Positions 4,790 to 23,121 are shown, numbered from the stretch's first letter. The stretch is 54,003 bases of DNA from Deltaproteobacteria bacterium CG11_big_fil_rev_8_21_14_0_20_42_23 (GCA_002796345.1 PCXC01000076.1:1-54003); one strand, 5' to 3'. The notes: generated from the letters alone by a model not told the origin. Made by a program: numbers and translations.

Positions 4790-4846
4790 GGCGTGTCGCA
4801 TAAACGGGTTTTTGAAAATTTGCCATGAAAATACAGGAGATTGCCT

Positions 4847-7800: not shown

Positions 7801-10800
7801 AGTTCAAGCGAGTACCACGAATAACTTTTCAGCATTAGTTGTAAATGAACTTACTCCTTCAAACCAAACGCACTTTGATGTTCCTGCAAATAGATTTTCT
7901 TATGATACGCAATATTATTGGCGAGCACGAGGAGAAGACGCTTTAAGTGCTGGAGCATGGTCGGCCACTCGAAATTTCACCACCGAACAAGAGTTGCAAC
8001 TTACAGCAGCGCTTGAGAGTGAATCTCATCAAGATGGAACAAGCGTAAATCCGCGCCAAAATTTCACCAAGCGTTGGACACTTCGTAACAACGGAGAAGT
8101 AACGTGGAACAGTAACTATGTGCTTCGTTATGTAAGTGGACCTATGAGCAACAGCCATGTGGATATTCCTTTGGGAACAAATGTTGCGCCTAATCAAACA
8201 AAGTCTTTCTACGTTTCGATGACCGCACCATTAAGTGGCCAAAATATTCAAGATGATTGGCAACTGCGCAGTGATACTGGAGGCGTTGTTCCTGTTGGTG
8301 GGTCGCAAACCGTTTGGGCACGAGTAAATGTGGCGGCAAATGATTCTGCAGAGTGGGTGGGCGAAACTATTCCGGATGACAGCGCACCGTTTACTCCAGG
8401 ACAATCATTCACCAAAACGTGGACCATAAAAAACAGAAGTTCAGTCGCGTGGAACAGTGATTATTTCCTACGCCGCCGCGCAGTTGTAACTGAATTGAGT
8501 CAACAAAACACTCTTCCTATTTCGGGAAGTGTTGCGGTTGGTTCCAATTTTGTTTTCTCGGTAAATATGAGAGCTCCGCAACAAGCTGGTACCTATCGTG
8601 AAGAATGGGAACTTGTTGGACCAAGCGGAAGTGTGATTCAAATCCGCGGGGCTGATAATTCTTGGTCTACAGATAAAATTTGGGCAAACATTTCGGTTGC
8701 TGTTCCCGAAACGCCGCCAGATGGATTGCCTACTACAAACAGCTCCAATCCTACGTATGCCGAGATCAACCAAGAACTTTTGGCTCAAGCTGCAGCACAT
8801 AATATTCCGCCTAATATTTTACAGACGGTTGCGTTTCAAGAGTCTAAGTGGAGACAGTTTCGAGACAGTAATAGTTCCGGATTATTCCATTGCGGAACAG
8901 CTCTTCCATGGAGTGCAGGTGATATTGTTTATGGATATGATTTTAATCCAAACGATTGTCCTAACATCATCAGTGTTGGTATAGGTCTTATGCAAATTAC
9001 TATTCCCGTTACGAATACGGTGAATAATATTCAAAATGGAATCAACTGGGGTGATGCTACTTTGCACCAACAAGTTTCAGGAAACTGGCGAACCAATATT
9101 GAAAAGGCTATCGAAAAACTTAATGCCAGGTGGATGGAAAACATAGATTATCCAGGAGCAGCTGGATGCGATATCGACAAGCGTGTTATTGAAAACTGGT
9201 ATTATCCCATTGCTTGGTACAATGGGCAGGGAGGTATTGATGGTGCATATGGTTATGTGAGAGACATCTATTCTTATATGCGCGGAGATACGTTTACAAA
9301 TGCGCATGTAAGTCCCTATCTTACAACCCTTGCAAACATTGGTTCTCCTCAAGATATACCGGGTTACAGTGAAGTGATTTTTGAGAATGGCAATCAGCCT
9401 TATTCACTTGCTGAGCTTGTAGATAACGGTGGACGTATTCATCGTTGGACAGGTGGAAACAATTACAATGATGTAACCGATCTTGTTTCATCAGGAAACT
9501 GTGAATCAGGAACGGCAAATAATCTTTCCATTCCTTCTCAAGTGAAAGGACTCACGCTTACGCAAAATGGTGGTACGGTAAACTTTGAATGGAACGAAAA
9601 TCCGCAAGATGAGACTGTTCAAGGCTATTATCTCTATACTCAAACCGTTGACGCAAACGGAACTCCGCAAGGAAATGAAGTTCGCTTCGGGCCAATCCAA
9701 GGTTCGGGTGTCAGTCAAAATCTTGCAGCTGGTCGTTATCGTTTCCAAGTAGCAGCTCTCAATGCTGCTGGAACTGGAACGCGTTCTAAGTCTTATCTCT
9801 TCAGTGTTGAAGCGGTTCAAGCGGGATTAGCTCAAGTGCAAGGTGTAACAACAGATGTTGATGATCATGATGTGCGCATTACCTGGAATGCTGTTGGCAA
9901 TGCAAATAAATATCTCCTCGTATGGAAAACTACTGGATTTGCTGGCATTCCTCTAACAGGTTCGGCTGAAACAGACAGTACGACTTACTCCAAAGAAAAT
10001 GCAAGCGAAGGGTCATTCCGTATCCAAGTAAAGGCCTGCAAAGAAGCTCCGTGGTATGATGTGTTTACGAAGGACGAATGTGGAGCATGGTCAGATGAAA
10101 TTCAATTTAATGTTCCAGAAGCAAACTTCGACATTGCATGTACTGAGCTTCACAATAACAACATGGTTATGTCGAAGAGAATTGCTGTAAATGATATCAA
10201 TAACTATTGTTTCAAGCTCCCCGCAAACGTTGATGTAGTAACAGTTCAGATGGGTGGGAAGGGATTAGTATATCCGAAGGATGCAGATCTTTATCTAAAA
10301 CAAGGATCGCCGATTGCAGCAAATGAAATAGGACCTCGTCTTCCATGTCCTGATCCAGACGTCAAAAAACGTGATACAGATTGTTATCGAGATAGCATTA
10401 ATCCTATTTTCATTGCGCCAGCTCATGGAAGTTCATTTGAATCTGTAACTTTATATAATCCTCCAGCTGGAAAGTACTATGTGGCTGTCCATGGAAGTTC
10501 GAGTATGAATCGGATAGTTGGCGATGATAAAAGTTTGAATTACTTTATTAAACTCCATTATCATGGCGTAGCTCGCGAAGGACTTCCAAATGGGTTTGTT
10601 CTAAATAGAAATGGACCATCAAATGTGTTTAGCCCAGTTAATCCAGATGCAGGTGATTGGTGGTCAGTTGAACGAACTTGTGCAAGCAATTGGCAATTAG
10701 CGCAAGACGCAGGATGGGGACCGTGCAATCCTACAGTCACAATTAATGGTTCAAGTGGTATAGGTGTAGTAACAGCAACTCAAGCTGGGCAAAATAATCT

Positions 10801-13800
10801 TTCTTGTTATTCAAACTGTCGAAGTAATCATCACGATAAAGGAGATTGGGATTCAAGAGATTTCAATCTTTCAGATGGTACTGATAATGGTGAGAATTTA
10901 TATGCAGCTCTTTCAGGAACAGTTATTTTTAAGGGAAGTAATGGGGGTTATGGTCAAGAAGTAGTGATTCAATCCGATATCGATGCAAACTTTGCTGTAC
11001 GTTATGCTCATATGAAATCGTGGGCAAACAATTTGGAAGTAGGTCAACATATAGATGCTGGAACCTTGATTGGTCAAATTGGTGGAACAGGTGGCTATAA
11101 ACCTCACTTGCATTTTAACCTCCATAAAAACATCGCACTTAACACTGCGAGTGGAACTCCAATGAATCAAGAGGGACTCAATACAAGCTTGCGTGGTGGA
11201 ATGCATTCATCAACATTCTATTCAGCCTTTGTTCCACTTGATATAAATGACTATCTTGATCTTCCTTCAAATGGCAGTAAAACCTGGACCATTGTGGAAT
11301 CACGTTGTCCGGTTGATCTCAGCGTAACCGATAGCCAAGGAAGAAAAGTGGGCAAGGGTGCGTTTGGCACAATGGACCTCGAGATTCCAGAAGTTGAATA
11401 TTACACCGTTCATGCTGGAGTGGATGAGTACGAACTCTTAGCACTTCCAAATGTAAATGTAGGAAATGATTATCAAGTGAATATTGTGGGCGCGGGAGAT
11501 GGCGAATTTAACGTTGCTATTTCTTCACCAGATGCTCCACCTCAACACATTGATAACCTTGCTTATCTTGGTGAACGTGTAAGTCCGGAAATTAGCGCAA
11601 AGCTAAATATTGCTTCGCTAAATAGTTCTCGTCCATTAATGATTCAAAATGAAAATGGTGCTTATATTCCAGAACTCAACTTCGATGAAGATGATGCTGC
11701 ACAATATAATGCTCCAGCTCCTCAGATTGAAAATATTTCCAGCCGAGTTCTTTCTCGTGGTGGAAGCTTGATTATTACCGGAACAAACTTGGGTGGTTTG
11801 GCCAATGCACTTTCTGGAGAAGTAGACCTCATTCAAAATCATGATATTTATCGACCGTTCAAAATTCAATCATGGCAGCAAAATCAGATAGTGCTTGATT
11901 TTGAGGTCGATGTTCCATTTGGAGAGTATCAACTTCGTTTGATGGTGTATCCATCACGTCTTCTCTCAAATAAAATTGTCGTTGATGTGATTGATGGCGC
12001 ATCTACTCCTGTGCTTGAGAAATTATCTACTCCTTATGCGCTTGCAGATAGAGATGGAAATAGGCTTGAGCTTTCAGGAAGAAATTTTGCAGGTGCTGCA
12101 AGTGTTCGCATCGGAAATCAAAACCTTCAAGATACCTATGTAGCATCGCAAGGTTTTATTCATGGAACACTTCCAAGATTTGCTGTTGGAACATATAACG
12201 TCGTTGTGAATAATGGCAATGGTCGTCAATCTGCGCAGATTCATCAAATACAGTACATAGATCCAAATGGTGATCTCGATAGTGATGGTATTTTGAATCA
12301 AGTTGAACTTCTTAACGGAACGAATCCTGGAAACATCGATACCGATGGCGATGGCGTGAAAGATGGTGTTGATGATCTTCCAACCGATGAAAGTGAATCT
12401 GTTGATACCGATGGGGATGGTATTGGAAATAATGCAGATACCGACGACGACAACGATGGTGTCAATGATACGCAAGATCTTTGTCCACTTGTGAGCGATC
12501 CGAACCAAAGCAATGTTGATGGTGATGCTGCGGGTGATGTATGCGATGAAGATGCCGATAATGATGGCGTGCTCAATCAACTTGATGCCTTCCCGCTTAA
12601 TGCAAATGAATCACTTGATACCGATGAAGATGGCATTGGAAACAATGCCGATCTTGATGATGACAACGATGGTGTGAACGATGCGCAAGATGCATTTCCC
12701 TACAATTCAAACGAGACAGCAGACACCGATGGCGACGGCATTGGCAACAATGCAGATACCGATCGTGATAACGATGGGGTTGACAATGTAAACGATGCCT
12801 TCCCGCTTGATCCAAATGAATCGGCAGATACCGACAACGATGGCATTGGCGACAACGTCGATCTTTGTGCTGATACGCAAGGTTTGGCCGGTGCCGATGG
12901 CTGCGCTGCAAATCAGTCTCCGTTGCTTATCGATGGAAGTATGGAAGCTGCAAACCTAGATGCATGGCCAGCTAGCGGGAATCCGGTAGTGAGAGAAAAA
13001 ACAAATGCTGAAGCTGAAAGTGGTGTGCAAAGTTTACACCTTAGCACTGTTGGTGCTGCAAATGCTGGTGTAAGACAAAACAATATTCCAGTGGAAGCTG
13101 GAAAGTGGTACGAATTTTCCTTCAGCTATCAATTGCTTCAAGGCCAAATTAAACCTGTGCTTGTTACAAGTGGCAGTGCAGACTTCGAAGGATTACTTCC
13201 ACTTATTAGTAACACTGAAAATGGATGGCAGACCTACACCAGACAATTCCAAATTCCTCTCAACTTTGTGGGAGAGCTTGGCGTTCTTATCACCGCAGTT
13301 AATGCAGATGTTTATCTTGATGAGATAAACATTCGCAGCATTCCAGGGCCGCGACTTGTACTCGATGGAAACATGGAAGAAGAGGGCGTTGGCGCTTGGA
13401 ATTCTTACGGTAGTCCGGCGCAAAAGCTGAAAACAGCTGAAAAATCTTTAAGCGGAGTTCAGAGTCTCTACCTCGATACCGAAGGTGCAGGTGGTGGAGT
13501 GCAGCAGTTGGATATTCCACTTGAAGCGGGTGAATGGTATGAATATTCTTTCCACTATCAATTGCAGCAAGGTGAAATAAGAACTTTACTTGGCATCAAT
13601 TCTTCAAACATCGACTTTGAGAATGCGCTTGCCATCATCACCAACCAGAGCAATACGTGGCAGACCTACACCAGACAATTTCAAGTGCCTGCAGATTATG
13701 CGGGTGGATTGCGCTTTGTTATCAACACCAAAAATGCACGTGTCTATTTGGATGATGTGAGCATCACGCCAATTGCGGGTCCAGACATTGTGCTCGACGG

Positions 13801-14719
13801 CAACATGGAAGCGGTAGGTGTTGGTTCATGGTCATCTTACGGCAGTCCTGCGACGAAAGAAAAAACTGCAGTTGAATTTGCGGATGGTCAGCATAGCTTG
13901 CACATCAGCACGTTGGGTTCAGCAGGCGGAGTTCAACAGCTTGATCTTCCGGTTGAAGCGGGTCAGTGGTACGAATATTCTTTCCAGTACCTCATGAAAA
14001 AAGGTGAAATAAAACCTCTATTGGGAATCAATTCGTCAAACACCGATTTCGAAGGCAACGGAGCAGTGCTTCGTGATCAAAGTGGAACTTGGAAGTCATA
14101 TGTGCGGCAATTCCAGGTTCCAGCTGGTTTTGCGGGTGGCTTACGATTAGTGATTAATACTCGGGATGCCGATCTCTATCTTGATGCTGTTCGAATCATC
14201 CCCATTGCAAACCCACTTACCATTCTTGATGGTGACATGGAATCAGATACCTTAAGTGCTTGGCAAGCTTATGCAAGCCCGGCTCTTTTAGAAAAAGTTT
14301 CAGATTCTGTGCACGGTGGAAGCCGTAGTTTGTACATACAAACTCCTGATGCAACTGGGCGAAATCAAGGTGGTGTGCAGCAGCTGCAGGTCAACGTTGA
14401 ACCAGGGCGTCGTTATCGTTTTTCTTTCTGGTACAAGTCTCACGGAATGTCTCTTCCTCGGCTTGGAGCGGGAGATTCAAACAATGACTTCGAGTTTGTA
14501 GGTTGGGATGAAAATGGACAGCCATTGTATCCTGTGTTTACAAGGTCGGCAGCAGGGTGGACCTATTATGAACGAGAATTTATAGCACCAGATACCGATG
14601 ACTTCCGTGCCGTCTTTATTGTTTATGATGGAGAAGTATCACTGGATGGGCAAAGCTATATCGAATATGAGTTTGGCCAACTTTGGTTGGATGACGTTCA
14701 GATTACACCCTTGAATTAG
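4847..14719 (+). CDS. giant multidomain surface lipoprotein with lytic transglycosylase and M23 peptidase domains
   Basis: 3,290 residues from ATG 4847; AGGAG ends 7 bases upstream. The lipobox LTSC puts the lipidated Cys at 24. In order: a beta-rich region with a DNRLRE-like domain (about 30-500); NBR1-type Ig domains (about 506, 724, 1055, 1169) alternating with fibronectin-III-like domains and a KRE9-like domain (850-950); a lysozyme-fold SLT domain (1300-1480) with Glu1332 in FQESKW, GLMQIT (1380-1385) and WYN (1457-1459); two fibronectin-like domains; a PPC-like domain (1760-1910); an M23 domain (1950-2110) with His1995/1996, Asp2005, His2055 and HLH (2087-2089); two IPT/TIG domains; thrombospondin type 3 Asp-rich repeats (2475-2675); and four CBM4/9-like modules of about 143 residues. 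Both wall-cutting domains keep their key residues. It probably remodels or attacks peptidoglycan at the cell surface. A strong terminator follows. Confidence 0.9.
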   Translation: MKKMNRWSTFTNFFLLFLLFLTSCGGTQSQKGTLSTTTEIPDDSSFSEASVEIPGLRTASSITYENKDGSRTTEFSSAPVYYLKGDAWQDIDTTLSSDIEDDDFDLGVEKSELKVFFKDTASNANFITRALNLDTDTSPYVMKFMAGESALLWQSEKMSIVDKDEKALYEENAVRAERKNSENQISYVNVFQNVDENYIVLPESIKHNVILKQKFDDFSDASKVLHTGTLSLPPEFEVMADETYLQPEESVEAKSFKIKKDGTEKWYYFSAPSMFEQDGDEEIQGTYKLERTREALRISIQFDYAWIQDAKRIFPLVLDPSVTLESSTASRTGYIYGNAGSKTRSYSSSVGMKIGGANGNVNYYRGYAEWDISAIADATSISSAIVRLRDRVWNDVSGDGSMSTKIIEMSLRPTSSTPQQVYDDISDGRDYGYIQWFGKNTTKDFTFDATERSHVFNKRGLGWFAIGLRLYNGVGDDADSVWLHTNTTSSTYRPKLIVTYAAPTDGASFVTETIPDGTDLEVNTNFTKTWTLRNSGQTTWNNTYCLHYASDNVAGTLSTSQNPVCVQGTVAPGNNYIFSVSMRTPASAQANAREDWSFKRNGTTIQVSASNTVYVLIDVTAPAPFPAPGLVSPANGATAISRTARLDWNSINGATNYRVQVSTSSAFNSFLIDHADGNSYYDMQQNDNLQRNTLYYWRARAGSADRGGEWSVTRNFRTENLTASFVSETYPDNNVDGADVLANTNFTKTWTIQNTGNSTWTSSHCIHFLGTNVPGGNPLSQNTNATCIVGSVAPNNNYTFSVPMRTPASGTGLRDRWQLRDGFNQSILVDGSNEIWALIDVIADPCGTAGASLTVTSPNGGENLRIGNNYTVTWNEVGNIQQLHIHLYKGANVVYGLSNNAPNNGSFNFSLQADTVPGNDYRIGMSNLHANGACDGTIYDFSNNNFTVSAAPSAPVLTAPANAVSNVSRTVRLDWNAASGATSYRVQASTTNNFSALVVNELTPSNQTHFDVPANRFSYDTQYYWRARGEDALSAGAWSATRNFTTEQELQLTAALESESHQDGTSVNPRQNFTKRWTLRNNGEVTWNSNYVLRYVSGPMSNSHVDIPLGTNVAPNQTKSFYVSMTAPLSGQNIQDDWQLRSDTGGVVPVGGSQTVWARVNVAANDSAEWVGETIPDDSAPFTPGQSFTKTWTIKNRSSVAWNSDYFLRRRAVVTELSQQNTLPISGSVAVGSNFVFSVNMRAPQQAGTYREEWELVGPSGSVIQIRGADNSWSTDKIWANISVAVPETPPDGLPTTNSSNPTYAEINQELLAQAAAHNIPPNILQTVAFQESKWRQFRDSNSSGLFHCGTALPWSAGDIVYGYDFNPNDCPNIISVGIGLMQITIPVTNTVNNIQNGINWGDATLHQQVSGNWRTNIEKAIEKLNARWMENIDYPGAAGCDIDKRVIENWYYPIAWYNGQGGIDGAYGYVRDIYSYMRGDTFTNAHVSPYLTTLANIGSPQDIPGYSEVIFENGNQPYSLAELVDNGGRIHRWTGGNNYNDVTDLVSSGNCESGTANNLSIPSQVKGLTLTQNGGTVNFEWNENPQDETVQGYYLYTQTVDANGTPQGNEVRFGPIQGSGVSQNLAAGRYRFQVAALNAAGTGTRSKSYLFSVEAVQAGLAQVQGVTTDVDDHDVRITWNAVGNANKYLLVWKTTGFAGIPLTGSAETDSTTYSKENASEGSFRIQVKACKEAPWYDVFTKDECGAWSDEIQFNVPEANFDIACTELHNNNMVMSKRIAVNDINNYCFKLPANVDVVTVQMGGKGLVYPKDADLYLKQGSPIAANEIGPRLPCPDPDVKKRDTDCYRDSINPIFIAPAHGSSFESVTLYNPPAGKYYVAVHGSSSMNRIVGDDKSLNYFIKLHYHGVAREGLPNGFVLNRNGPSNVFSPVNPDAGDWWSVERTCASNWQLAQDAGWGPCNPTVTINGSSGIGVVTATQAGQNNLSCYSNCRSNHHDKGDWDSRDFNLSDGTDNGENLYAALSGTVIFKGSNGGYGQEVVIQSDIDANFAVRYAHMKSWANNLEVGQHIDAGTLIGQIGGTGGYKPHLHFNLHKNIALNTASGTPMNQEGLNTSLRGGMHSSTFYSAFVPLDINDYLDLPSNGSKTWTIVESRCPVDLSVTDSQGRKVGKGAFGTMDLEIPEVEYYTVHAGVDEYELLALPNVNVGNDYQVNIVGAGDGEFNVAISSPDAPPQHIDNLAYLGERVSPEISAKLNIASLNSSRPLMIQNENGAYIPELNFDEDDAAQYNAPAPQIENISSRVLSRGGSLIITGTNLGGLANALSGEVDLIQNHDIYRPFKIQSWQQNQIVLDFEVDVPFGEYQLRLMVYPSRLLSNKIVVDVIDGASTPVLEKLSTPYALADRDGNRLELSGRNFAGAASVRIGNQNLQDTYVASQGFIHGTLPRFAVGTYNVVVNNGNGRQSAQIHQIQYIDPNGDLDSDGILNQVELLNGTNPGNIDTDGDGVKDGVDDLPTDESESVDTDGDGIGNNADTDDDNDGVNDTQDLCPLVSDPNQSNVDGDAAGDVCDEDADNDGVLNQLDAFPLNANESLDTDEDGIGNNADLDDDNDGVNDAQDAFPYNSNETADTDGDGIGNNADTDRDNDGVDNVNDAFPLDPNESADTDNDGIGDNVDLCADTQGLAGADGCAANQSPLLIDGSMEAANLDAWPASGNPVVREKTNAEAESGVQSLHLSTVGAANAGVRQNNIPVEAGKWYEFSFSYQLLQGQIKPVLVTSGSADFEGLLPLISNTENGWQTYTRQFQIPLNFVGELGVLITAVNADVYLDEINIRSIPGPRLVLDGNMEEEGVGAWNSYGSPAQKLKTAEKSLSGVQSLYLDTEGAGGGVQQLDIPLEAGEWYEYSFHYQLQQGEIRTLLGINSSNIDFENALAIITNQSNTWQTYTRQFQVPADYAGGLRFVINTKNARVYLDDVSITPIAGPDIVLDGNMEAVGVGSWSSYGSPATKEKTAVEFADGQHSLHISTLGSAGGVQQLDLPVEAGQWYEYSFQYLMKKGEIKPLLGINSSNTDFEGNGAVLRDQSGTWKSYVRQFQVPAGFAGGLRLVINTRDADLYLDAVRIIPIANPLTILDGDMESDTLSAWQAYASPALLEKVSDSVHGGSRSLYIQTPDATGRNQGGVQQLQVNVEPGRRYRFSFWYKSHGMSLPRLGAGDSNNDFEFVGWDENGQPLYPVFTRSAAGWTYYEREFIAPDTDDFRAVFIVYDGEVSLDGQSYIEYEFGQLWLDDVQITPLN

Positions 14720-14740
14720 TCTCATAAGAACACGTTAAAA

Positions 14741-14772
14741 GGGGGAGCATGCTCAAACATGCTCCCTTTTTT
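14741..14772 (+). terminator. rho-independent terminator after the giant gene
   Basis: GGGAGCATG - CTCAAA - CATGCTCCC forms a 9-bp GC-rich stem followed by six T residues (14767-14772), 22 bases after the stop codon. Confidence 0.93.
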
Positions 14773-14777
14773 GTGTG

Positions 14778-14808
14778 TGTTCGGTGAACATGTTCAGTAT
14801 TTCGAACA
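14778..14808. promoter_or_regulatory. candidate operator: clustered TGTTC/GAACA half-sites (GAACATGTTC core)
   Basis: A perfect 12-bp palindrome TGAACATGTTCA at 14785-14796 is flanked by TGTTC (14778-14782) and GAACA (14804-14808). The same order of half-sites occurs at 21564-21624. It lies 150-180 bases upstream of the 606-residue lipoprotein gene. Confidence 0.55.
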
Positions 14809-14881
14809 GAAAACGAAAATAAGTGCAGGTTTTCGGATCATTGCCAAAAAAAAGTCAGGAAAAGATTGTTCTCTTCCTAAA

Positions 14882-14910
14882 AATAAGTAGCTTCGGCAAA
14901 GCTGCTTATT
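14882..14910 (+). promoter_or_regulatory. leader hairpin ahead of the 606-residue lipoprotein gene
   Basis: AATAAGTAGCTT - CGGCA - AAGCTGCTTATT forms a 12-bp stem with one G-U pair and a 5-base loop, 50 bases before the start codon. No T-tract follows, so it is not a classic terminator. It may be an mRNA leader structure or a small palindromic repeat. Confidence 0.4.
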
Positions 14911-14960
14911 ACAAGGCTTTGCGGACTACCATTAGAAAAAAGTTAGAAAGTGAGAAAACC

Positions 14961-16781
14961 ATGCAATCTCTTTGTTCCCTTTTCCGTAACAGTATTTTGT
15001 CCCTCATTCTGCTCACTCCCTTTTTGCTCAGCGCCTGTAGTGGTGGATCTTCAGAGGGGAGTGCGAATACATCCGCGTCAGCATCAGCTGGAAAGTACGC
15101 TTCAGTTAAGCGAGCAAAGGTTGATTATGAACACAGGGGAGTTTTGTATGCTTTTCTAAATTCAGCTCGAACACGAGAAATTGTTTTGATCATGCCATTT
15201 TATAAATCATACCCTGGCGAACAGTTTGAGCTTGGTACAAACGATGTTGATGATGAAAGCAATTACGGCAAAGGCATTCTTTTTATGCATGAATTTGAGC
15301 CAAATAAAAATGGAAATATTACTTTTAATGATATTCCATCTGAAAAGTTTAGCCTTACGGGTTCCTGGATTTCCACATCAGGAATGGTTGACGTTGAAGA
15401 AGCTGGAATTAAAAATGGGGATAAGCTCAAAGGTCTCATTCATGAAGTAGATTTTGTTCAGTTTGATCTCAAAACGAACAAACCACTTTTAGATGGTAAA
15501 GTGAACAGTTTGTCCGAAGAAGAATTTTCTGCAGAAATTAGTGAGGGTGGAATCGATGATATTGTAATTACAAATCTGGATAAACTTTCAGGTACACTAG
15601 GAACTCAAGTAAGGATGAGAGCACACAATCTTCCGTCAGAAGTGAAAGTTCGTTTCGAAGCTTGTGCAGACGAAATGCCAACTGAAATAATGGATGAATA
15701 TAATTTTACTGTAAACGTTACTAGCTATTGTTCAGATGCACGTTTTCACGTTGAAGATAAATCTGATCAAACTAATTTTTATACGCTTGGTTTAGCATTC
15801 AAGTTTGATAAACTTCCTCAACACACGACAACGGAAATTTCATCGGTCGCAGAGAATGCAGTGTTTGATAAAGCTGTCTATGATGCCGCCAGCGGAAACC
15901 TTTACATTCACTATCAAGACAGCGAAAAAATCTTGGTTTATTCTTCACTTCAATCTGGTTTTCTTCAGAGCATTTCGCTTCCTCATGCTGCACGCACGTT
16001 TGATCTTGCTTTCGACAAACCCTACATTCTTATTTCAAAAGAAAATCAACTTTTTCTTTTAGACAGCAACTTTGAAGTATTCAAAACCTGGACAGTGGAA
16101 GGTGACAACATTTTGGATATTGCGATTACTGCAAATAAAGAAGCTCTTATTTTATCTGGCGAATCGCAAGACAGCAAAAATCTTCATCTTGTTTCGTTAA
16201 GTTTTGATGATCAAGAACTCAAAAATGTTGAAGAACTTTCAAGTTTTAGTTTAGCAAAAGATCCAAGAGGTGAAGTGAAGTTTCAAGTGAGAAAAGATAG
16301 AAAAGCAGTTCTTATTTCAGATGCTGAAAAAAGTTTTTCTAAAGTAGTAAGTCTAAATGAAGATGGAAACTGGAAAAACTACAACTCAGATCTCCTTCCG
16401 TTGAACACGGTATTGTTGATGCATCCCAACAAAGACGAATTATTTACAGATGAAGCTGTAGTTGATTATGAGCACAAAGTTATCTCGGATCTTGCGATCA
16501 AAAAACTTCTCCCAGCTTTAGGTGCCGATGCACAAGTGGTGGGAAATATTGATGCCGATGGCAATGTGGTACTTGCCGCAAACAAATACTTTGAAGTGTA
16601 CAGCTCTGACAGTGAACGTCTTTTCACGTCCATGTTGGGAGATTACGAATCTGATGCAGCAGCATTTGGGCCAGTTCGCTTTGTGGGATTTGCACAAGAT
16701 GAAACGCAGCTTCTTGTGTTAACGCAACATAGAGTATTTGAATACTACTACCCAGAAATTCAAGCTGAACTCTCGGAGTAG
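14961..16781 (+). CDS. lipoprotein of unknown function with a beta-propeller-like C-terminal half
   Basis: 606 residues from ATG 14961. The frame extends upstream to a GTG at 14823, but ATG 14961 starts directly at a standard lipoprotein signal peptide (hydrophobic core, LLSAC with lipidated Cys 26), so the upstream part is leader. After a Gly/Ser/Ala-rich linker, residues about 40-290 form a beta-rich domain I do not recognise. The C-terminal half has repeating short strands of the kind found in WD/NHL-like propellers (for example YILISKENQLFLLDSNFEVFKTW, then LDIAITANKEALILSG). It is probably anchored in the outer membrane, where it may bind a ligand or partner. It lies right after the giant lysin-like lipoprotein and carries the operator-like palindrome upstream, so the two may be functionally linked. 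Confidence 0.75.
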   Translation: MQSLCSLFRNSILSLILLTPFLLSACSGGSSEGSANTSASASAGKYASVKRAKVDYEHRGVLYAFLNSARTREIVLIMPFYKSYPGEQFELGTNDVDDESNYGKGILFMHEFEPNKNGNITFNDIPSEKFSLTGSWISTSGMVDVEEAGIKNGDKLKGLIHEVDFVQFDLKTNKPLLDGKVNSLSEEEFSAEISEGGIDDIVITNLDKLSGTLGTQVRMRAHNLPSEVKVRFEACADEMPTEIMDEYNFTVNVTSYCSDARFHVEDKSDQTNFYTLGLAFKFDKLPQHTTTEISSVAENAVFDKAVYDAASGNLYIHYQDSEKILVYSSLQSGFLQSISLPHAARTFDLAFDKPYILISKENQLFLLDSNFEVFKTWTVEGDNILDIAITANKEALILSGESQDSKNLHLVSLSFDDQELKNVEELSSFSLAKDPRGEVKFQVRKDRKAVLISDAEKSFSKVVSLNEDGNWKNYNSDLLPLNTVLLMHPNKDELFTDEAVVDYEHKVISDLAIKKLLPALGADAQVVGNIDADGNVVLAANKYFEVYSSDSERLFTSMLGDYESDAAAFGPVRFVGFAQDETQLLVLTQHRVFEYYYPEIQAELSE

Positions 16782-16855
16782 TTCTGTAAGTTTTTCTGAG
16801 AAGAAAGGCTGAAAACTATTGATTGTTCAGCATATTTTTGGCAAATACCTTGCTT

Positions 16856-17068
16856 ATGCCGAATGAAAACCGGAAGCAAATTACAGAGCATTTGCACAAC
16901 TTGAATGGTGGTCTTTCCGTTGTGAAGAGTTTTATTTTCCACCTTGATTCTTGCTCGCTTGAAGGTGAATTACGCGAACTTCACGAAGCGGCGAAGAGAA
17001 ATCTAGAGCATTCCATTCGTACCACAAAAGAACTTTCACATCTCATCCAGTACCTCGACAAGCTTTAG
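16856..17068 (+). CDS. small two-helix protein resembling a histidine-kinase dimerisation (DHp) hairpin
   Basis: 70 residues from ATG 16856; the frame continues upstream to TTG 16825 without a clear benefit. The sequence is two amphipathic helices: ITEHLHNLNGGLSVVKSFIFHL, then ELRELHEAAKRNLEHSIRTTKELSHLIQYL. The HLHNLNGGLSVV stretch has the look of an H-box (His followed by Asn and a small hydrophobic run), and the second helix matches the return helix of HisKA/Spo0B-type hairpins. There is no ATP-binding domain, so if it takes part in phosphotransfer it must act as an intermediate or scaffold. It lies between the lipoprotein pair and the Ser/Thr kinase. The gene call itself is moderately secure; the DHp reading is inference from pattern. 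Confidence 0.5.
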   Translation: MPNENRKQITEHLHNLNGGLSVVKSFIFHLDSCSLEGELRELHEAAKRNLEHSIRTTKELSHLIQYLDKL

Positions 17069-17090
17069 TGGTGAAAGCAGCGTAACCACG

Positions 17091-17305
17091 TGACCTGCCG
17101 GTTACAGGCAGGGGATCTAGTAATTCAAACATTGTGCCGTCATCCTGAGAGTAACGAAGGATCTCCTCTGACAATTTGTAATTGTGAATCACCTGAGGAG
17201 ATTGCCACGTCGTTTAACAACACTCCTCGCAAAGACAGCAAATTGGTCGAATTACTGGATTTCCGTTTCCCTCCAAAAACATTGGCGGGCGGGAGGGTAT
17301 GAGAA
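17091..17305. repeat. cluster of dispersed intergenic repeat sequences
   Basis: No credible gene lies in 17069-17311. CCTGCC-GGTTACA-GGCAGG is an inverted repeat at the start. It is followed by GTCATCCTGAGAGTAACGAA, GGATCTCCT, GAGGAGATTGCCACGTCG and CTCCTCGCAAAGACA, then GAGAATGACA. These word combinations are typical of dispersed palindromic repeats seen in many environmental bacterial genomes; that is recall, not a search. It separates the convergent small DHp-like gene and kinase gene. Confidence 0.6.
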
Positions 17306-17311
17306 TGACAG

Positions 17312-20300
17312 CTAAAATCGTGCTTGGAGTTGTTTGAAGTGCTCGCTTACTTCAGGGACTTCAGGGACTTCATGTGTGAGGGATTTGAGGGTTGCTAATA
17401 AACCTTCTGCATTTTTTTTGCGGTCACTTTCAAGATAAATTTCAACCAAGGTTCCATATAAGCTATAGCGCATATTTGCCGAAAGGTGTTCATGGTTGTC
17501 GTAGTTCATCGCTTCCAGCAAATAATGTTCAGCTCGTTCATATTTTTTCTGGTGATATAAAGCATCTCCAAGTGCGATAAGAATTTCTGCACGTTTTTTC
17601 CTCACAAACACACTCGATTTTCCCTTTGGCCCGCTTGAAAAATCAAGCGCAGCCTCAAGGTATTCAGCAGCATTAGAGGCTTCTCCTAGTTCACTCAAAA
17701 TAAAACCAAGGTTTACCATTATTTCAGCTGTAACTGTTTCACTTTCAATATGCTGTGAAAGCGTAAGTGCTTCACGGTAATGCTTTGCGGCTTGTTTAGG
17801 TTTTTGCTGAAGCAAATGGATGCTTCCCATTCCATTTAAAACTCGAATGTTCAGTTGAAGTAAATGATGTTCAGATGCAATTTTCAATGCCGCTTTATAG
17901 TGTTTCATGGCGTGAGAAAATTCCTGCAGTGATGGATGTCGGTAGGCTTCGCCCAAGAGATAATGTTTCGAAGCCGCTTTTTCTTCTGCTGCGTGTTGAG
18001 TTGAAGTTTGAAGTTCTTGCATCAAGATGGGAATGGCATCTTTTGCTTTGCCCAAACGAAAGAGCGTTTCGCCAAGTTCATTGTTGTCTACCAAGTCTTG
18101 TTGCTTTTTGGGTAGTTTTTTTGCAGCTGTTGCGTTTTGTTCAAAAATTGTTGCAGCAGACTTTGCCTTTCCAGCTCTCAACTCAACTGACGCCAAATAG
18201 TTGCTGAGCCTTATTTTCCAGGCATCAGGATATTCTTGAAATAAAACAAGCTTTAGTGCTTCATGAAAATATTTTTCTGCTTCACGCGTGTTTCGTTTTC
18301 GAAGGCTTAATAAACCTTTTTGTTCGAGTGCTTTGATAGAAAATGTTTTGAGTATTTTTTCAGGAACCTGAAGTTGCTCAATTTTTTGTAATGCTTCAAA
18401 ACTTAAATCGTCTTGTTGTGCACGTTCATAAAGATTGCTTAAGTGAATGAGACAATCTACCTTTTCATTTAAGTTGTCTTCTGAAAGCTCAGTGTAAAGT
18501 TGTCTGCAATAATCAATAGCTGCATAATTATGATTGTGTTTCAGTTCAAAAGGAATAAGTCGCTTTAAGGCTTCAACTCTTACTTCGCGTTTTGATCCAT
18601 GTGCCAAATAATAATCAAGTTCATCTTGGCTTGTAGCCTCAGCCGATAACACTGTAACAATGGCATCGTGAAGAGCGTAGCTTTCTTTGTTTGGAAGTGT
18701 TTGAGAAATAATTTTTGCTACCATTCCATTGTTGAAAGTGTAAGTCGCATCTTCATTTCTTTTGATGTAAGCACTTTCTACCAAATGTGGAAGTTGCGTT
18801 ATACACGTTGCATCTGACAAGCATGCTTCAAGTTCATTAAGTGAAACAGCTCTTTTCCAACATGAAAAAACTGCGGCGAGAGTTTTTAACTTTGGTTCCA
18901 ACTGTTGATACCAGTTTAAGGTAGTTTCCTTCAAAGATTTTGAAGGACCAGAATGTGAAAAATCAATTCCAATTTGCTTTAACGTTTTTGCATCAGGTCT
19001 CCCGGCTAAAGTGAAAAGCTTTCCGCGGGAAATCATTTGTTCAAGGTGCTCGGTCAAGTAAAGTGGATTTCCTTCCGTTACGTTCAAGAGTTGATCCACA
19101 ACACTTTCCTCAGGTTTTTCTCCCAAAAGATTTTCCAAATATTCTGAAACTTCCTCATGCGAAAAAGGATTGAGTTCAAGTGATGTTACAAAATCATTTT
19201 TTAACCCCAAGTTCAGACAAAATGATTCGGGTGAAAGACGTTCGGAATTGAGGGTGCAGAGGAGGAGATAACGTTTGTTTTCTTTATCTTTAATTTTTTG
19301 CTGGAGTTCCAGTTTTTTCAAAAGATGTTTAAGCCCGTGAAGCAACTCTTCTTTTTGGCCGAAACCATTTTTTTCATCAAAGAGAAGGTCAAGATCATCA
19401 ATTAATACGCAATGCACAAAAGGTTCAGAAGAATTTTCTTTTTCCAACATTTCTTCCAAGGTGTTTAAATTTTCCTGACGAGAAAGATCAAGATGATGTA
19501 CAAACATTTCTTGCTGTTGAGCATAAGCTTTTACGTATTCAAGAAGTCTTGTTTTTCCAATTCCAGTCGGACCGGTAAGAGCAAGGACGGGAATATGTGA
19601 AGTATCAGCACGAAGCTGCTCGCATACATTTTCTAAAAAGAGATGCTCTTTTTTTCTGCCAATGAGTTTTCCTTTTTTAGGTAAATAGGCAAGCAAGGTC
19701 TCTTTACTTTCTGGTTGATGTTGATGAGGGCTTCTGTATTGCAGTGCCTGTGCGGCAATGCCGGAAGTGCTGTAGCGATCATCAGGATTTTTTGCCATGA
19801 GTTTCAAAATAATTCTATCCAAATAATGCGGAATTTCTTGTCTATATGCTGAAGGTGGTTTTGGCTCAGAATTCATGTGCGCCAAAAGTGTTGCTTCCAT
19901 ATCACGCTTCATATTTTTTTTGCGATCGAAAGGTTGAATGCCAGTAAGTAAATAATAAAAAGTAACTCCAAGCGAATAAAGATCACTCCGATGATCTGGC
20001 TTTTGCCAATTTTCGTGTCTAAATGTTTCACTAAAACGCTTGAGATGCGCTACCATTTCAGGCGGCATGTAGTTTGGAGTTCCACCCGCGCGAGAATTTT
20101 CACGGAACGAAGCAAGACCGAAATCAATTAAGGCAAGTTCGGGATGCTTTCCCTTTTTTCGCAACAATAAATTCTGAGGTTTGATATCAAGGTGCAACAG
20201 CTGCTGATTGCGCAAATATTCAAGTGCGCGCAAAGCTTGAAGCAATAAATCTTCAATCACATTTACTTCAGCCATTACTAAGGTGCTCAAGTCACCGTGT

Positions 20301-20611
20301 GGAAAAAGTTCGGTCGTGAAAAAATATTTTTCAAGCTGAGGATCAAAACCAAAATCATAAATTTTCGAAATGTGGGGATGGGAAAGATTTTTTAAAATCG
20401 CAAATTCATTTTTGAACTGTCCTGCAACCAGTTCTTTGTCTTTTATGGGAGACCAGTTGAGAAACTTGAGGGCCAGCTCGCGTTTTGTCTTGTCACTTGC
20501 CTTCCAAACGGTTCCCCCCATGCCTTTAGAAATTTCATGGAGGAGGGTGTATTGGCCAAGTACCAAGTGGTTTTCATTTTCTGACCCAAATTCAGGACGG
20601 TAAAATGCCAT
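17312..20611 (-). CDS. Ser/Thr protein kinase - AAA ATPase - TPR signalling protein
   Basis: 1,099 residues. The N-terminal eukaryotic-like kinase (about 20-290) has the Gly loop ISKGMGGTVWKA, Lys49 in ALKFL, catalytic HLDIKPQN with Asp142, DFG at 163-165, and YMPPE. His-Leu-Asp replaces HRD, so it is a non-RD kinase. Next is a P-loop ATPase (about 315-560) with GPTGIGKT (347-354) and Walker B CVLIDDLD, of the AAA_16/STAND type. The remainder is helical and rich in TPR-like repeats (about 680-1080) for protein binding. No transmembrane segment is seen, so it should be cytoplasmic. Similar kinase-ATPase-TPR fusions are common in myxobacteria-like genomes. The last codons contain a short VPEVPEV direct repeat. 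It lies convergent to the lipoprotein block and follows the DUF4912-like gene on the same strand. Confidence 0.9.
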   Translation of the reverse strand: MAFYRPEFGSENENHLVLGQYTLLHEISKGMGGTVWKASDKTKRELALKFLNWSPIKDKELVAGQFKNEFAILKNLSHPHISKIYDFGFDPQLEKYFFTTELFPHGDLSTLVMAEVNVIEDLLLQALRALEYLRNQQLLHLDIKPQNLLLRKKGKHPELALIDFGLASFRENSRAGGTPNYMPPEMVAHLKRFSETFRHENWQKPDHRSDLYSLGVTFYYLLTGIQPFDRKKNMKRDMEATLLAHMNSEPKPPSAYRQEIPHYLDRIILKLMAKNPDDRYSTSGIAAQALQYRSPHQHQPESKETLLAYLPKKGKLIGRKKEHLFLENVCEQLRADTSHIPVLALTGPTGIGKTRLLEYVKAYAQQQEMFVHHLDLSRQENLNTLEEMLEKENSSEPFVHCVLIDDLDLLFDEKNGFGQKEELLHGLKHLLKKLELQQKIKDKENKRYLLLCTLNSERLSPESFCLNLGLKNDFVTSLELNPFSHEEVSEYLENLLGEKPEESVVDQLLNVTEGNPLYLTEHLEQMISRGKLFTLAGRPDAKTLKQIGIDFSHSGPSKSLKETTLNWYQQLEPKLKTLAAVFSCWKRAVSLNELEACLSDATCITQLPHLVESAYIKRNEDATYTFNNGMVAKIISQTLPNKESYALHDAIVTVLSAEATSQDELDYYLAHGSKREVRVEALKRLIPFELKHNHNYAAIDYCRQLYTELSEDNLNEKVDCLIHLSNLYERAQQDDLSFEALQKIEQLQVPEKILKTFSIKALEQKGLLSLRKRNTREAEKYFHEALKLVLFQEYPDAWKIRLSNYLASVELRAGKAKSAATIFEQNATAAKKLPKKQQDLVDNNELGETLFRLGKAKDAIPILMQELQTSTQHAAEEKAASKHYLLGEAYRHPSLQEFSHAMKHYKAALKIASEHHLLQLNIRVLNGMGSIHLLQQKPKQAAKHYREALTLSQHIESETVTAEIMVNLGFILSELGEASNAAEYLEAALDFSSGPKGKSSVFVRKKRAEILIALGDALYHQKKYERAEHYLLEAMNYDNHEHLSANMRYSLYGTLVEIYLESDRKKNAEGLLATLKSLTHEVPEVPEVSEHFKQLQARF

Positions 20612-20618
20612 GTTTGTA

Positions 20619-20624
20619 AGTATA
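20619..20624 (-). promoter_or_regulatory. candidate -10 element (TATACT) directly upstream of the kinase start
   Basis: Read on the minus strand, TATACT ends 7 bases before the ATG, and no Shine-Dalgarno precedes that ATG. If the element is used, transcription would begin at or next to the start codon, giving a leaderless mRNA. No convincing -35 was found at 17 bases. Confidence 0.3.
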
Positions 20625-20681
20625 CCAGAAAGGGCTTTGTGAAGTATAGGTGTTTTCTGAATAAAATCAGCTAGATAGTAG

Positions 20682-20701
20682 TTTTGGCTCTTTGGCCAAA
20701 A
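20682..20701 (-). other. stem-loop downstream of the DUF4912-like gene
   Basis: TTTTGGC - TCTTTG - GCCAAAA forms a 7-bp stem between the DUF4912-like gene and the kinase gene. The T-tract needed for a rho-independent terminator on the minus strand is missing. It may attenuate read-through or simply be a small palindrome. Confidence 0.35.
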
Positions 20702-20747
20702 TCGGGGTTTAGAGCCAATATAATCGGTTTAACCCGTTGAACTTGAA

Positions 20748-21485
20748 CTACTTTTTGAAGCTAGAGACATCTTGAAAAAGGCCTTCAATGCTGGGGCTTG
20801 AAAGATGCTGGGTATTTCCATCGTGAAACAGCCTGTAAAAATAAGGGCCAAGCACCTGTTTTAGCTCTTCATCTTGAGTGGGGTTATTTTCTGCAAAAGA
20901 GCCGTTAGGAGCGTTTAATTCGTCTGAACTGGCCAAAAGAACCGTTTCACCCAGTTCGTTTTTTAGGATGAGGTCAAAAATGAGCTTTTGGTCTGAGTTA
21001 CTGGTTTTGAGGTACCAGTTTCCTTTTGGGCCATAGGTTTCGATGTCAAATCGAGACCTTTTTGTGCCAACAAGAAGCTCTGAAAAACGGAGGTACATTC
21101 TGGGATTATGGCCAAGCAATTCTGATTTTTCTTCTACAAGCGTTCTGGGAATGTTCCAGGATGTAAACAAGAAACGATTTTGAAAAAGAAACAATTTTGC
21201 CTGTGCTGTTTGTACAGGAGCAGCAGTGTATTGTTGTTTGACTACGCTGGCGGCCAAGAGTTCTGAGGCTAAGTTTTCTTGAACTGCTGGGGCTTGTTCG
21301 AAGAGCGAGTGGGTTTGCTCTACAAGGCGCGAAAAGTTTTTGTGGCTGGAAACGGGATCGAGGTTGTCGTGGTAGTGAAGGTCTTGTTTTTGAGACAGGA
21401 TGGTGGCGAGGGTGATGTGCTTTGAGTTTGGTGGGAGTAGTTTTGGTTTTTCGCGTCGTAATAGTCCTCTTAGGCTCAATTTCAT
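20748..21485 (-). CDS. DUF4912-like protein
   Basis: 245 residues from ATG 21485. The frame is open to 21650, but GGGAGG stands 7-8 bases ahead of ATG 21485, so that start is chosen. After an N-terminal basic segment (MKLSLRGLLRREKPK) and a helical region, residues about 100-200 match the DUF4912 layout: FLFTSWNIP, an LxLRxxELL-like strand, FDIETYGPKGNWYLKT, then the return LILKNELGETVLLASSDELNAP. DUF4912 proteins are found in deltaproteobacteria, spirochaetes and cyanobacteria and have no established function. There is no signal peptide. It is transcribed divergently from the sigma54 response regulator across an interval full of TGTTC half-sites, which suggests shared control. Confidence 0.65.
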   Translation of the reverse strand: MKLSLRGLLRREKPKLLPPNSKHITLATILSQKQDLHYHDNLDPVSSHKNFSRLVEQTHSLFEQAPAVQENLASELLAASVVKQQYTAAPVQTAQAKLFLFQNRFLFTSWNIPRTLVEEKSELLGHNPRMYLRFSELLVGTKRSRFDIETYGPKGNWYLKTSNSDQKLIFDLILKNELGETVLLASSDELNAPNGSFAENNPTQDEELKQVLGPYFYRLFHDGNTQHLSSPSIEGLFQDVSSFKK

Positions 21486-21502
21486 CTTTAAATCCTCCCG
21501 AA

Positions 21503-21629
21503 TGTTCGCAAGCCCTAGCTCAAGTTCAGGGAAAAAGCAAGAATTCAGCTGCATTCCACAAAGTGTTCGCAAAAATGAACATGTTCTAAAAATAGGACAT
21601 GAAATCTGTTTACATATCGGAACAGATTT
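21503..21629. promoter_or_regulatory. divergent control region with TGTTC/GAACA half-sites
   Basis: Half-sites TGTTC occur at 21503-21507 and 21564-21568; a perfect GAACATGTTC palindrome lies at 21577-21586; and GAACA occurs at 21620-21624 inside a 9-bp inverted repeat AAATCTGTT/AACAGATTT (21602-21610 and 21621-21629). The set lies 50-115 bases upstream of the proposed sigma54 promoter, the right range for an enhancer-binding regulator. Confidence 0.55.
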
Positions 21630-21679: not shown

Positions 21680-21695
21680 TGGTATTGGGCTTGCA
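21680..21695 (+). promoter_or_regulatory. candidate sigma54 (-24/-12) promoter
   Basis: TGGTATTGGGCTTGCA fits the TGG-N9/10-TTGCA pattern with GG and GC exactly 10 bases apart, as sigma54 requires. It ends 28 bases before the regulator's ATG. The TAT in place of CAC makes it imperfect. Confidence 0.45.
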
Positions 21696-21723: not shown

Positions 21724-23121
21724 ATGGGATACAAAGTATTGTGTGTGGATGATCAAGAGGACCAGCGTTTGGCGATTCGGATGTCGCTTAAAGGATATGC
21801 CGAAGTTTTGGGAGTGGAAAACATTCAAGAGGCCAAACGAATTTTGCTGCGTGAAAACATTGATTTGGTTTTGCTTGATGTTGGACTTGGTGATGAATCG
21901 GGAATCAATGGCGTGAAGCTGATTAAATCGGAATTTCCTGACATTGATGTGGTGATGCTTTCTGGGCAGCACGATCCAAAAATTGTAGTGGAGGCAATTC
22001 ATGCTGGTGCTTCTGATTATTTAACCAAACCATTTTCTTCCGAAGAATTTTTTGCGGTCTTCGCATTAGTGCTCAAAAATAGAAATTTAAGAGAACGTTA
22101 TGAAGCTCTTGTTTCGGGGCAAAATGATTTTAATCAAGATCGCGAAATTATTTTTACCGGACCGGCGTTTAAAAAAGTGTTGAAGCAAGCGGGACAGTTG
22201 AAGGGCTATCAGGCAAACGTCTTTGTCATGGGCGAAACAGGAACAGGGAAAGAATATATTGCTCGCTATATTCATCAACGAGAAGACGATCCCGCAAGAC
22301 CATTTATTGCAGTGAACTGCGCTGCCATTCCCGAAAACTTGATTGAGGCTGAATTGTTTGGAGTGGAAAAGGGCGCTTACACTGGTGCTTTACAGCGAAG
22401 GATTGGCAGATTTGAACTTGCCGATGGTGGAGATATTTTCTTGGATGAAATTGGAACCTTGAAGCTTGATCTCCAGGCAAAAATTTTGCGTGTGCTTCAA
22501 GAAAAAGAATTTGTTCGTCTGGGAGGAAGTGCTGCCACCAAAGCAAACTTTAGAGTTATAGCTGCATCAAATGAAAACATAGAAGACAAAGTGTCACGTG
22601 GCGAATTTCGCATGGATTTGTATCACCGCTTACGTGTGATTCAACTCGATTTGCCGGCTTTGCGAGACAGAAAAGAAGATATTCCAGCTTTAGTGGCGCA
22701 TTTTTTCTCAAAACATTCAAAACAGGGAGTCACCAAAACCATTCATCCACAAGCTTTAGAAAAGTTGATGGAATATTCTTGGCCAGGAAATGTGAGAGAG
22801 CTGGAAAATGTAGTGCAGAGTCTTATTATTCTCTCGCAGAAAAATAGTATTCAAGAAACCGATTTACCAGCGTGGGCATTGAATGGAATTCATGTAGGGA
22901 AAAATGCAAAAGTTTCTCATTTTGTGGCAAATTTTTCCGCCAGTTCAGGTGCTCCCTTTGATCAACAACAAAGCTTGAAAGAGTACACGCAATATGCTGA
23001 AAAAATGTACATTCAAGAAGTGTTGGGGATGACAAAATGGGACAAATCAAAAGCAGCACGCGTCTTAGATGTAGGCAGGACAACGCTTTACAGTAAGCTT
23101 AAGGAATTTAATTTGTTGTAG
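21724..23121 (+). CDS. sigma54-dependent response regulator (NtrC family)
   Basis: 465 residues from ATG 21724, with AAGGGG about 8 bases upstream. The open frame back to 21400 runs through the divergent gene and control region and is not used. The receiver domain has the acidic pair Asp9/Asp10, phosphoacceptor Asp52 (LLDVG) and Lys102. The AAA+ domain has Walker A GETGTGKE (170-177), the sigma54-contact loop as GAYTGA (217-222, a tolerated variant of GAFTGA), Walker B GGDIFLDE (235-242) and WPGNVRELENV. The C-terminal Fis-type helix-turn-helix is in WDKSKAARVLDVGRTTLYSKL. It activates sigma54 promoters when phosphorylated. No cognate histidine kinase is adjacent. Half-site palindromes and a sigma54-like promoter upstream suggest that it controls itself. 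Confidence 0.93.
   Translation: MGYKVLCVDDQEDQRLAIRMSLKGYAEVLGVENIQEAKRILLRENIDLVLLDVGLGDESGINGVKLIKSEFPDIDVVMLSGQHDPKIVVEAIHAGASDYLTKPFSSEEFFAVFALVLKNRNLRERYEALVSGQNDFNQDREIIFTGPAFKKVLKQAGQLKGYQANVFVMGETGTGKEYIARYIHQREDDPARPFIAVNCAAIPENLIEAELFGVEKGAYTGALQRRIGRFELADGGDIFLDEIGTLKLDLQAKILRVLQEKEFVRLGGSAATKANFRVIAASNENIEDKVSRGEFRMDLYHRLRVIQLDLPALRDRKEDIPALVAHFFSKHSKQGVTKTIHPQALEKLMEYSWPGNVRELENVVQSLIILSQKNSIQETDLPAWALNGIHVGKNAKVSHFVANFSASSGAPFDQQQSLKEYTQYAEKMYIQEVLGMTKWDKSKAARVLDVGRTTLYSKLKEFNLL

Follow-up and report, generated by a model that had tools for sequence, protein, structure and literature searches.

Palindromic sites upstream of a predicted σ54-dependent response regulator gene and their probable use in its own activation

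Two distant intervals of the stretch of deltaproteobacterial DNA analysed here (54,003 nucleotides, the window) carry the half-sites TGTTC and GAACA in the same order around a common string, GAACATGTTC. Does one regulator act on both and, if so, which? The first interval lies upstream of a gene for a 606-residue lipoprotein (14961..16781, plus strand), and the second between a gene for a DUF4912 protein (20748..21488, minus strand) and the divergent gene (21724..23121, plus strand) for a σ54-dependent response regulator, a bacterial enhancer-binding protein assigned by Pfam, NCBIfam and alignment. A sequence-only reading had taken the two clusters to be identical, the fused GAACATGTTC to be the shared element and both intervals to be promoters under the control of the encoded σ54 regulator.

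An 18-bp palindrome and a three-site array

The strings and their order were confirmed at both loci: TGTTC, GAACATGTTC and GAACA lie at 14778-14782, 14786-14795 and 14804-14808 on the lipoprotein side, and at 21564-21568, 21577-21586 and 21620-21624 on the regulator side. The additional TGTTC at 21503..21507 is also present; it has no partner and was not counted as a site. The window holds exactly two copies of GAACATGTTC, as had been claimed, against about 0.08 expected from a first-order Markov model. The full order, TGTTC-N(1-40)-GAACATGTTC-N(1-40)-GAACA, occurs twice in the window and not once in 400 windows simulated with first-order composition. The genome scan that had been proposed, for TGTTC-N(1-10)-GAACATGTTC in 2,030,078 bases (2.03 Mb), returned just these two places, with none for the reversed control pattern.

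When the spacing k in TGTTC-Nk-GAACA was varied from 0 to 20, k=8 was found twice in the window (starting at 14791 and 21564) and any other value at most once. These two, TGTTCAGTATTTCGAACA at 14791-14808 and TGTTCGCAAAAATGAACA at 21564-21581, are the only exact N8 palindromes in the window, where about 0.08 are expected. Since only the N8 spacing recurs and GAACATGTTC is a mere abutment of neighbouring sites, the predicted recognition unit is the 18-bp palindrome TGTTC-N8-GAACA, and GAACATGTTC was rejected as a motif. At 21577 it arises where two full sites abut, and at 14786 where the lone full site adjoins a GAACA half-site that keeps the 18-bp register. Nor are the clusters identical, the regulator interval having three palindromes (one exact, two with one mismatch) and the lipoprotein interval one full site with its abutting half-site.

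In front of the regulator gene, site 1 (21564..21581, TGTTCGCAAAAATGAACA) is the exact palindrome. Site 2 (21582..21599, TGTTCTAAAAATAGGACA; one mismatch) abuts it, creating GAACATGTTC, and site 3 (21607..21624, TGTTTACATATCGGAACA; one mismatch) follows 25 bp after site 2. A σ54 −24/−12 promoter at 21680..21695 (plus strand, TGGTATTGGGCTTGCA) matches the core pattern used in our scans, GG-N10-GC, with TTGCA, and lies just 5′ of the regulator ATG at 21724. Relative to this element the sites start at −116, −98 and −73, with spacings of 18 and 25 bp, and so lie within the range of about 60-150 bp upstream taken here for enhancer sites of a σ54 promoter.

The encoded protein is built as such an activator. 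Its receiver domain (REC, 5-111; PF00072, E=1e-21) retains the Asp of LLDVGL in the alignment, a predicted site of phosphorylation. The AAA+ σ54-interaction domain (143-308; PF00158, E=1e-63) is followed by a C-terminal Fis helix-turn-helix (426-462; PF02954, E=2e-11) with the recognition helix GRTTLY. The σ54-contact loop reads GAYTGA, which we counted as a contact loop, being a conservative variant of GAFTGA. The departure from GAFTGA does tell against an activator, as does the loop GAYTSL in the orthologous regulator of one relative (G005, L050), where the site array and the promoter are intact.

From these features we infer DNA binding, phosphorylation and activation by the regulator, and consider it very probable that the clusters are binding sites for this NtrC-type protein and that it activates its own gene and a small regulon. 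A dimer of its Fis-type domain would bind each 18-bp TGTTC-N8-GAACA, and the three tandem sites (18 + 25 bp, a sum of about four helical turns) would form an enhancer 73-116 bp upstream of the σ54 promoter. After activation, for which phosphorylation of the receiver domain is the presumed trigger, an AAA+ oligomer of the regulator would form on the array and open the σ54 promoter, resulting in positive autoregulation. The same combination of enhancer and σ54 unit would also control the small regulon, mostly of exported proteins.

Conservation of the array and the predicted regulon

The palindrome alone is a poor guide to targets. Its exact form occurs at 10 places in the genome against 7 for the control, about chance level, which counts against the activator model, and most of the places outside the two intervals overlap open reading frames. 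We therefore rejected the palindrome alone as a genome-wide predictor; it is useless without a σ54 element. The sequence-only reading had named random or intragenic occurrence as evidence against itself. The single palindrome behaves in just this way, whereas the composite of palindrome and σ54 promoter is found far above chance.

A homologue search for the regulator covered 60 genomes, the window's own included, and 13 of them (again counting its own) encode a close homologue with the GRTTLY helix. The first spacing matrix included sites from regulator promoters; an independent matrix, for which the training sites came exclusively from other promoters in other genomes, removes this circularity for the regulator promoters. 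With the independent matrix, one to three palindromes were found upstream of the regulator gene in 13/13 GRTTLY genomes. In shuffle tests (300 each) the best score went unmatched in 11 of the 13 regions and was matched by one shuffle in G008 and by two in G042. The sites precede a σ54 or σ54-like promoter in all 13, the −12 element in G028 being TTGT rather than TTGC. Seven genomes (G000, which is the window's own, G001, G005, G006, G008, G023 and G042) keep the three-site array, with spacings of (18,25), (20,23), (18,24), (19,24), (19,23), (18,23) and (19,22), that is, 18-20 and then 22-25 bp. Two further regulators have different helices (ISRVTLH in G043, ISRYTLY in G045); here the σ54 promoter at the regulator gene is kept, with no site or one weak site.

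An exact palindrome with a σ54 core is present in 11/13 GRTTLY genomes against 3/47 others (Fisher p = 7e-8, an optimistic value because in these related genomes helix and sites share ancestry, so that the co-occurrence is partly phylogenetic). The anatomy of the sites, the σ54 element, their conservation and the co-occurrence with the recognition helix can all be read directly in these genomes. Binding of the motif by the regulator, with activation of its own gene, is the most likely reading. In G013 (L153 7325, minus strand) a second σ54 promoter, TGGCATGGGGCTTGCT, points away from the regulator promoter, and one array may serve both directions there.

In the window's own genome the exact palindrome and σ54 promoter also stand together upstream of genes on two other contigs, for an SpvB-domain exported protein (C14) and for an exported protein with Ig-like domains (C48), and a composite with one mismatch precedes a Ser/Thr kinase gene on contig 37. 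In the relatives the composite lies ahead of about 15 other genes, many of them for exported proteins; the products include lipoproteins, an M23 peptidase, an OmpA protein, PEGA-domain proteins, permeases, an OPT transporter and an IS200-like transposase. Upstream of the transposase (Y1_Tnp) gene, at L078 in G001, are an exact palindrome and a σ54 promoter. The predicted regulon centres on the cell envelope and on exported proteins, with no single function common to all members. The genome also has many σ54-type promoters without the palindrome, several of them ahead of lipoprotein genes, and these probably answer to other activators. Those directly 5′ of lipoprotein genes in this genome (L111, L114, L122, L133, L134) perhaps make up another σ54 regulon of envelope genes.

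The targets bear on whether a different regulator recognises the palindromes. Some LexA boxes consist of GAAC/GTTC half-sites, and an SOS repressor of the LexA type with TGTTC/GAACA half-sites would suit the half-site composition seen here. Against this, the composites have a spacer of 8 and stand at enhancer distance from σ54 promoters, DNA-repair genes are absent from the targets found, and the presence of the sites tracks the activator's recognition helix. We consider such a repressor very improbable, and retain the encoded activator as the protein that would bind the array.

The cluster upstream of the lipoprotein gene

The cluster at 14778-14808 begins just 3′ of a terminator-like hairpin (14736..14773, plus strand) that closes the upstream gene. 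This gene (4841-14719) encodes a 3292-residue protein with a lipoprotein-like signal at its start and with Ig-like, carbohydrate-binding (CBM_4_9), M23 peptidase and thrombospondin-type repeats. Extra half-sites occupy 14778..14790 (TGTTCGGTGAACA), and the GAACA at 14786-14790 abuts the full site at 14791..14808 in the register of sites 1 and 2. The full site, placed about 150 bp 5′ of the lipoprotein start codon in an intergenic leader, has a score of 23.0, the highest among the 10 exact sites of the genome. A random palindrome is a rather unlikely explanation. About 7 exact matches are expected genome-wide from the control count, and most other exact matches fall within open reading frames; this one is intergenic in a window expected to hold about 0.08, and the TGTTC-N(1-10)-GAACATGTTC composite is unique to the two places. 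In 400 simulated windows no exact palindrome arose with a GAACA adjoining it, and it is this half-site neighbour that makes chance unlikely.

The sequence-only reading had one regulator serving both intervals as equivalent promoters. Its first part probably stands: the regulator's own promoter combines the array with a −24/−12 element, the array tracks the GRTTLY helix in relatives, and the encoded σ54 regulator is the best candidate for both. We suggest that this activator probably also occupies the 14791 site. The equivalence fails, and the absence of a σ54 element near 14791 is a point against the activator model. Neither strand has a σ54 promoter candidate from 14808 to 14961, and so there is no promoter with enhancer at the lipoprotein gene; the best σ54 matrix score in 14720-15000 is 3.2, within the coding region, as against at least 11.3 for all 26 sites from which the matrix was built. 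A σ70 scan around this cluster found no σ70-like site. Further away, a σ54-like sequence at 16839-16854 (TGGCAAATACCTTGCT) was judged to be a chance match, overlapping the start of a small open reading frame 2 kb from the site; this frame (16856-17068) encodes 70 residues without a Pfam match.

With no σ54 promoter downstream of the 14791 site, its activation of the lipoprotein gene is at most a possibility, and two accounts of a bound site have to be weighed. The activator may switch on the lipoprotein gene, a possible target, through a degenerate σ54 promoter or another sigma factor. The score of the site, its intergenic position, the half-site in the 18-bp register of the regulator promoter and the simulations point this way, while the weak σ54 scores and the lack of a σ70-like site point the other; we put this somewhat below an even chance. 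The lipoprotein, which has no confident Pfam or NCBIfam family, is matched by only weak, partial homologues in 2/59 other genomes, and without a close homologue the 14791 site cannot be footprinted. At the equivalent position G008 also has a lipoprotein gene (L152 13435-15075), which was considered and set aside; homology and a matching site with a σ54 promoter are both lacking. Alternatively, the cluster may bind the activator and activate nothing, as a decoy, as a relic whose σ54 promoter was lost or as a site of repression. A strong site without a promoter is what this account predicts, and nothing speaks directly against it, yet promoter-less enhancer sites would be expected to decay and the 14791 site is near-perfect; we hold this, too, to be a real possibility short of probable.

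Signal input and relation to known activators

The DUF4912 gene and a gene for a 1099-residue Ser/Thr kinase-ATPase-TPR protein (17312..20611, minus strand) lie divergently from the regulator gene. Both are syntenic in G001, G003 and G008, so that with the window's own genome (G000) four genomes have a DUF4912 gene and a gene for a kinase of about 1100 residues in this arrangement; in G038 the kinase gene occurs alone. This neighbourhood, 17312-21488 in the window, is seen at L147, L149, L152 (G008) and L157, at the last as the kinase alone. The two proteins are possible signalling partners of the regulator. In part of the lineage no histidine kinase was seen beside the module of regulator, DUF4912 protein and kinase, while in G006 and G045 a histidine kinase lies near the regulator instead of the Ser/Thr kinase module. 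A bolder proposal, which we think unlikely, is that in part of the lineage a eukaryotic-type kinase drives the module as a σ54 circuit whose output is the activator. The phased three-site enhancer would then be a self-locking device, and promoter-less sites such as that at 14791 would act independently of σ54.

Of the named NCBIfam models shown, NtrC and NifA included, the regulator reaches the cut-off of none. It shares the order of REC, AAA+ and Fis domains with NtrC (NR-I, TIGR01818), its best NCBIfam match, but at 390.3 bits against a curated cut-off of 558.6 it is not NtrC. The upstream activating sequence of NifA is TGT-N10-ACA, a palindrome upstream of a σ54 promoter. The sites described here resemble it in being TGT/ACA palindromes so placed, and differ in an outer spacing of 12 instead of 10 and a conserved half-site of five bases; the regulator, unlike NifA, has a receiver domain. 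With TGT-N12-ACA sites and a NifA model score of 320.6 against a cut-off of 528.85, the genes do not form a NifA regulon.

Closer parallels come from Desulfovibrio vulgaris, where sites for NtrC-type activators often adjoin the σ54 promoter of the activator's own gene, regulons of σ54 response regulators mostly comprise one to four operons and some motifs have TGT and ACA half-sites 9, 11 or 12 bp apart (PMC4641369). The predicted circuit is like these in its small, autoregulated regulon and in its motif, since TGTTC-N8-GAACA is TGT-N12-ACA. D. vulgaris belongs to a different lineage, and we found no conserved three-site array described in PMC4641369; the strings TGTTC and GAACA are absent from its text, the motif logos being in figures. 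Our literature search found no paper linking TGTTC/GAACA sites to σ54.

The regulator is a new, well-supported case of a familiar control circuit, set apart by its conserved three-site enhancer; the circuit's arrangement is kept in at least 13 related uncultured bacteria. For an uncharacterised activator, sequence alone yields a DNA motif that can be tested, a predicted circuit at its own promoter and a list of targets. With spacing near-constant over several families, the three-site arrays lend themselves as a data set for studying the arrangement of such activators on DNA, and the adjacent Ser/Thr kinase raises the question of which signal drives the regulator.
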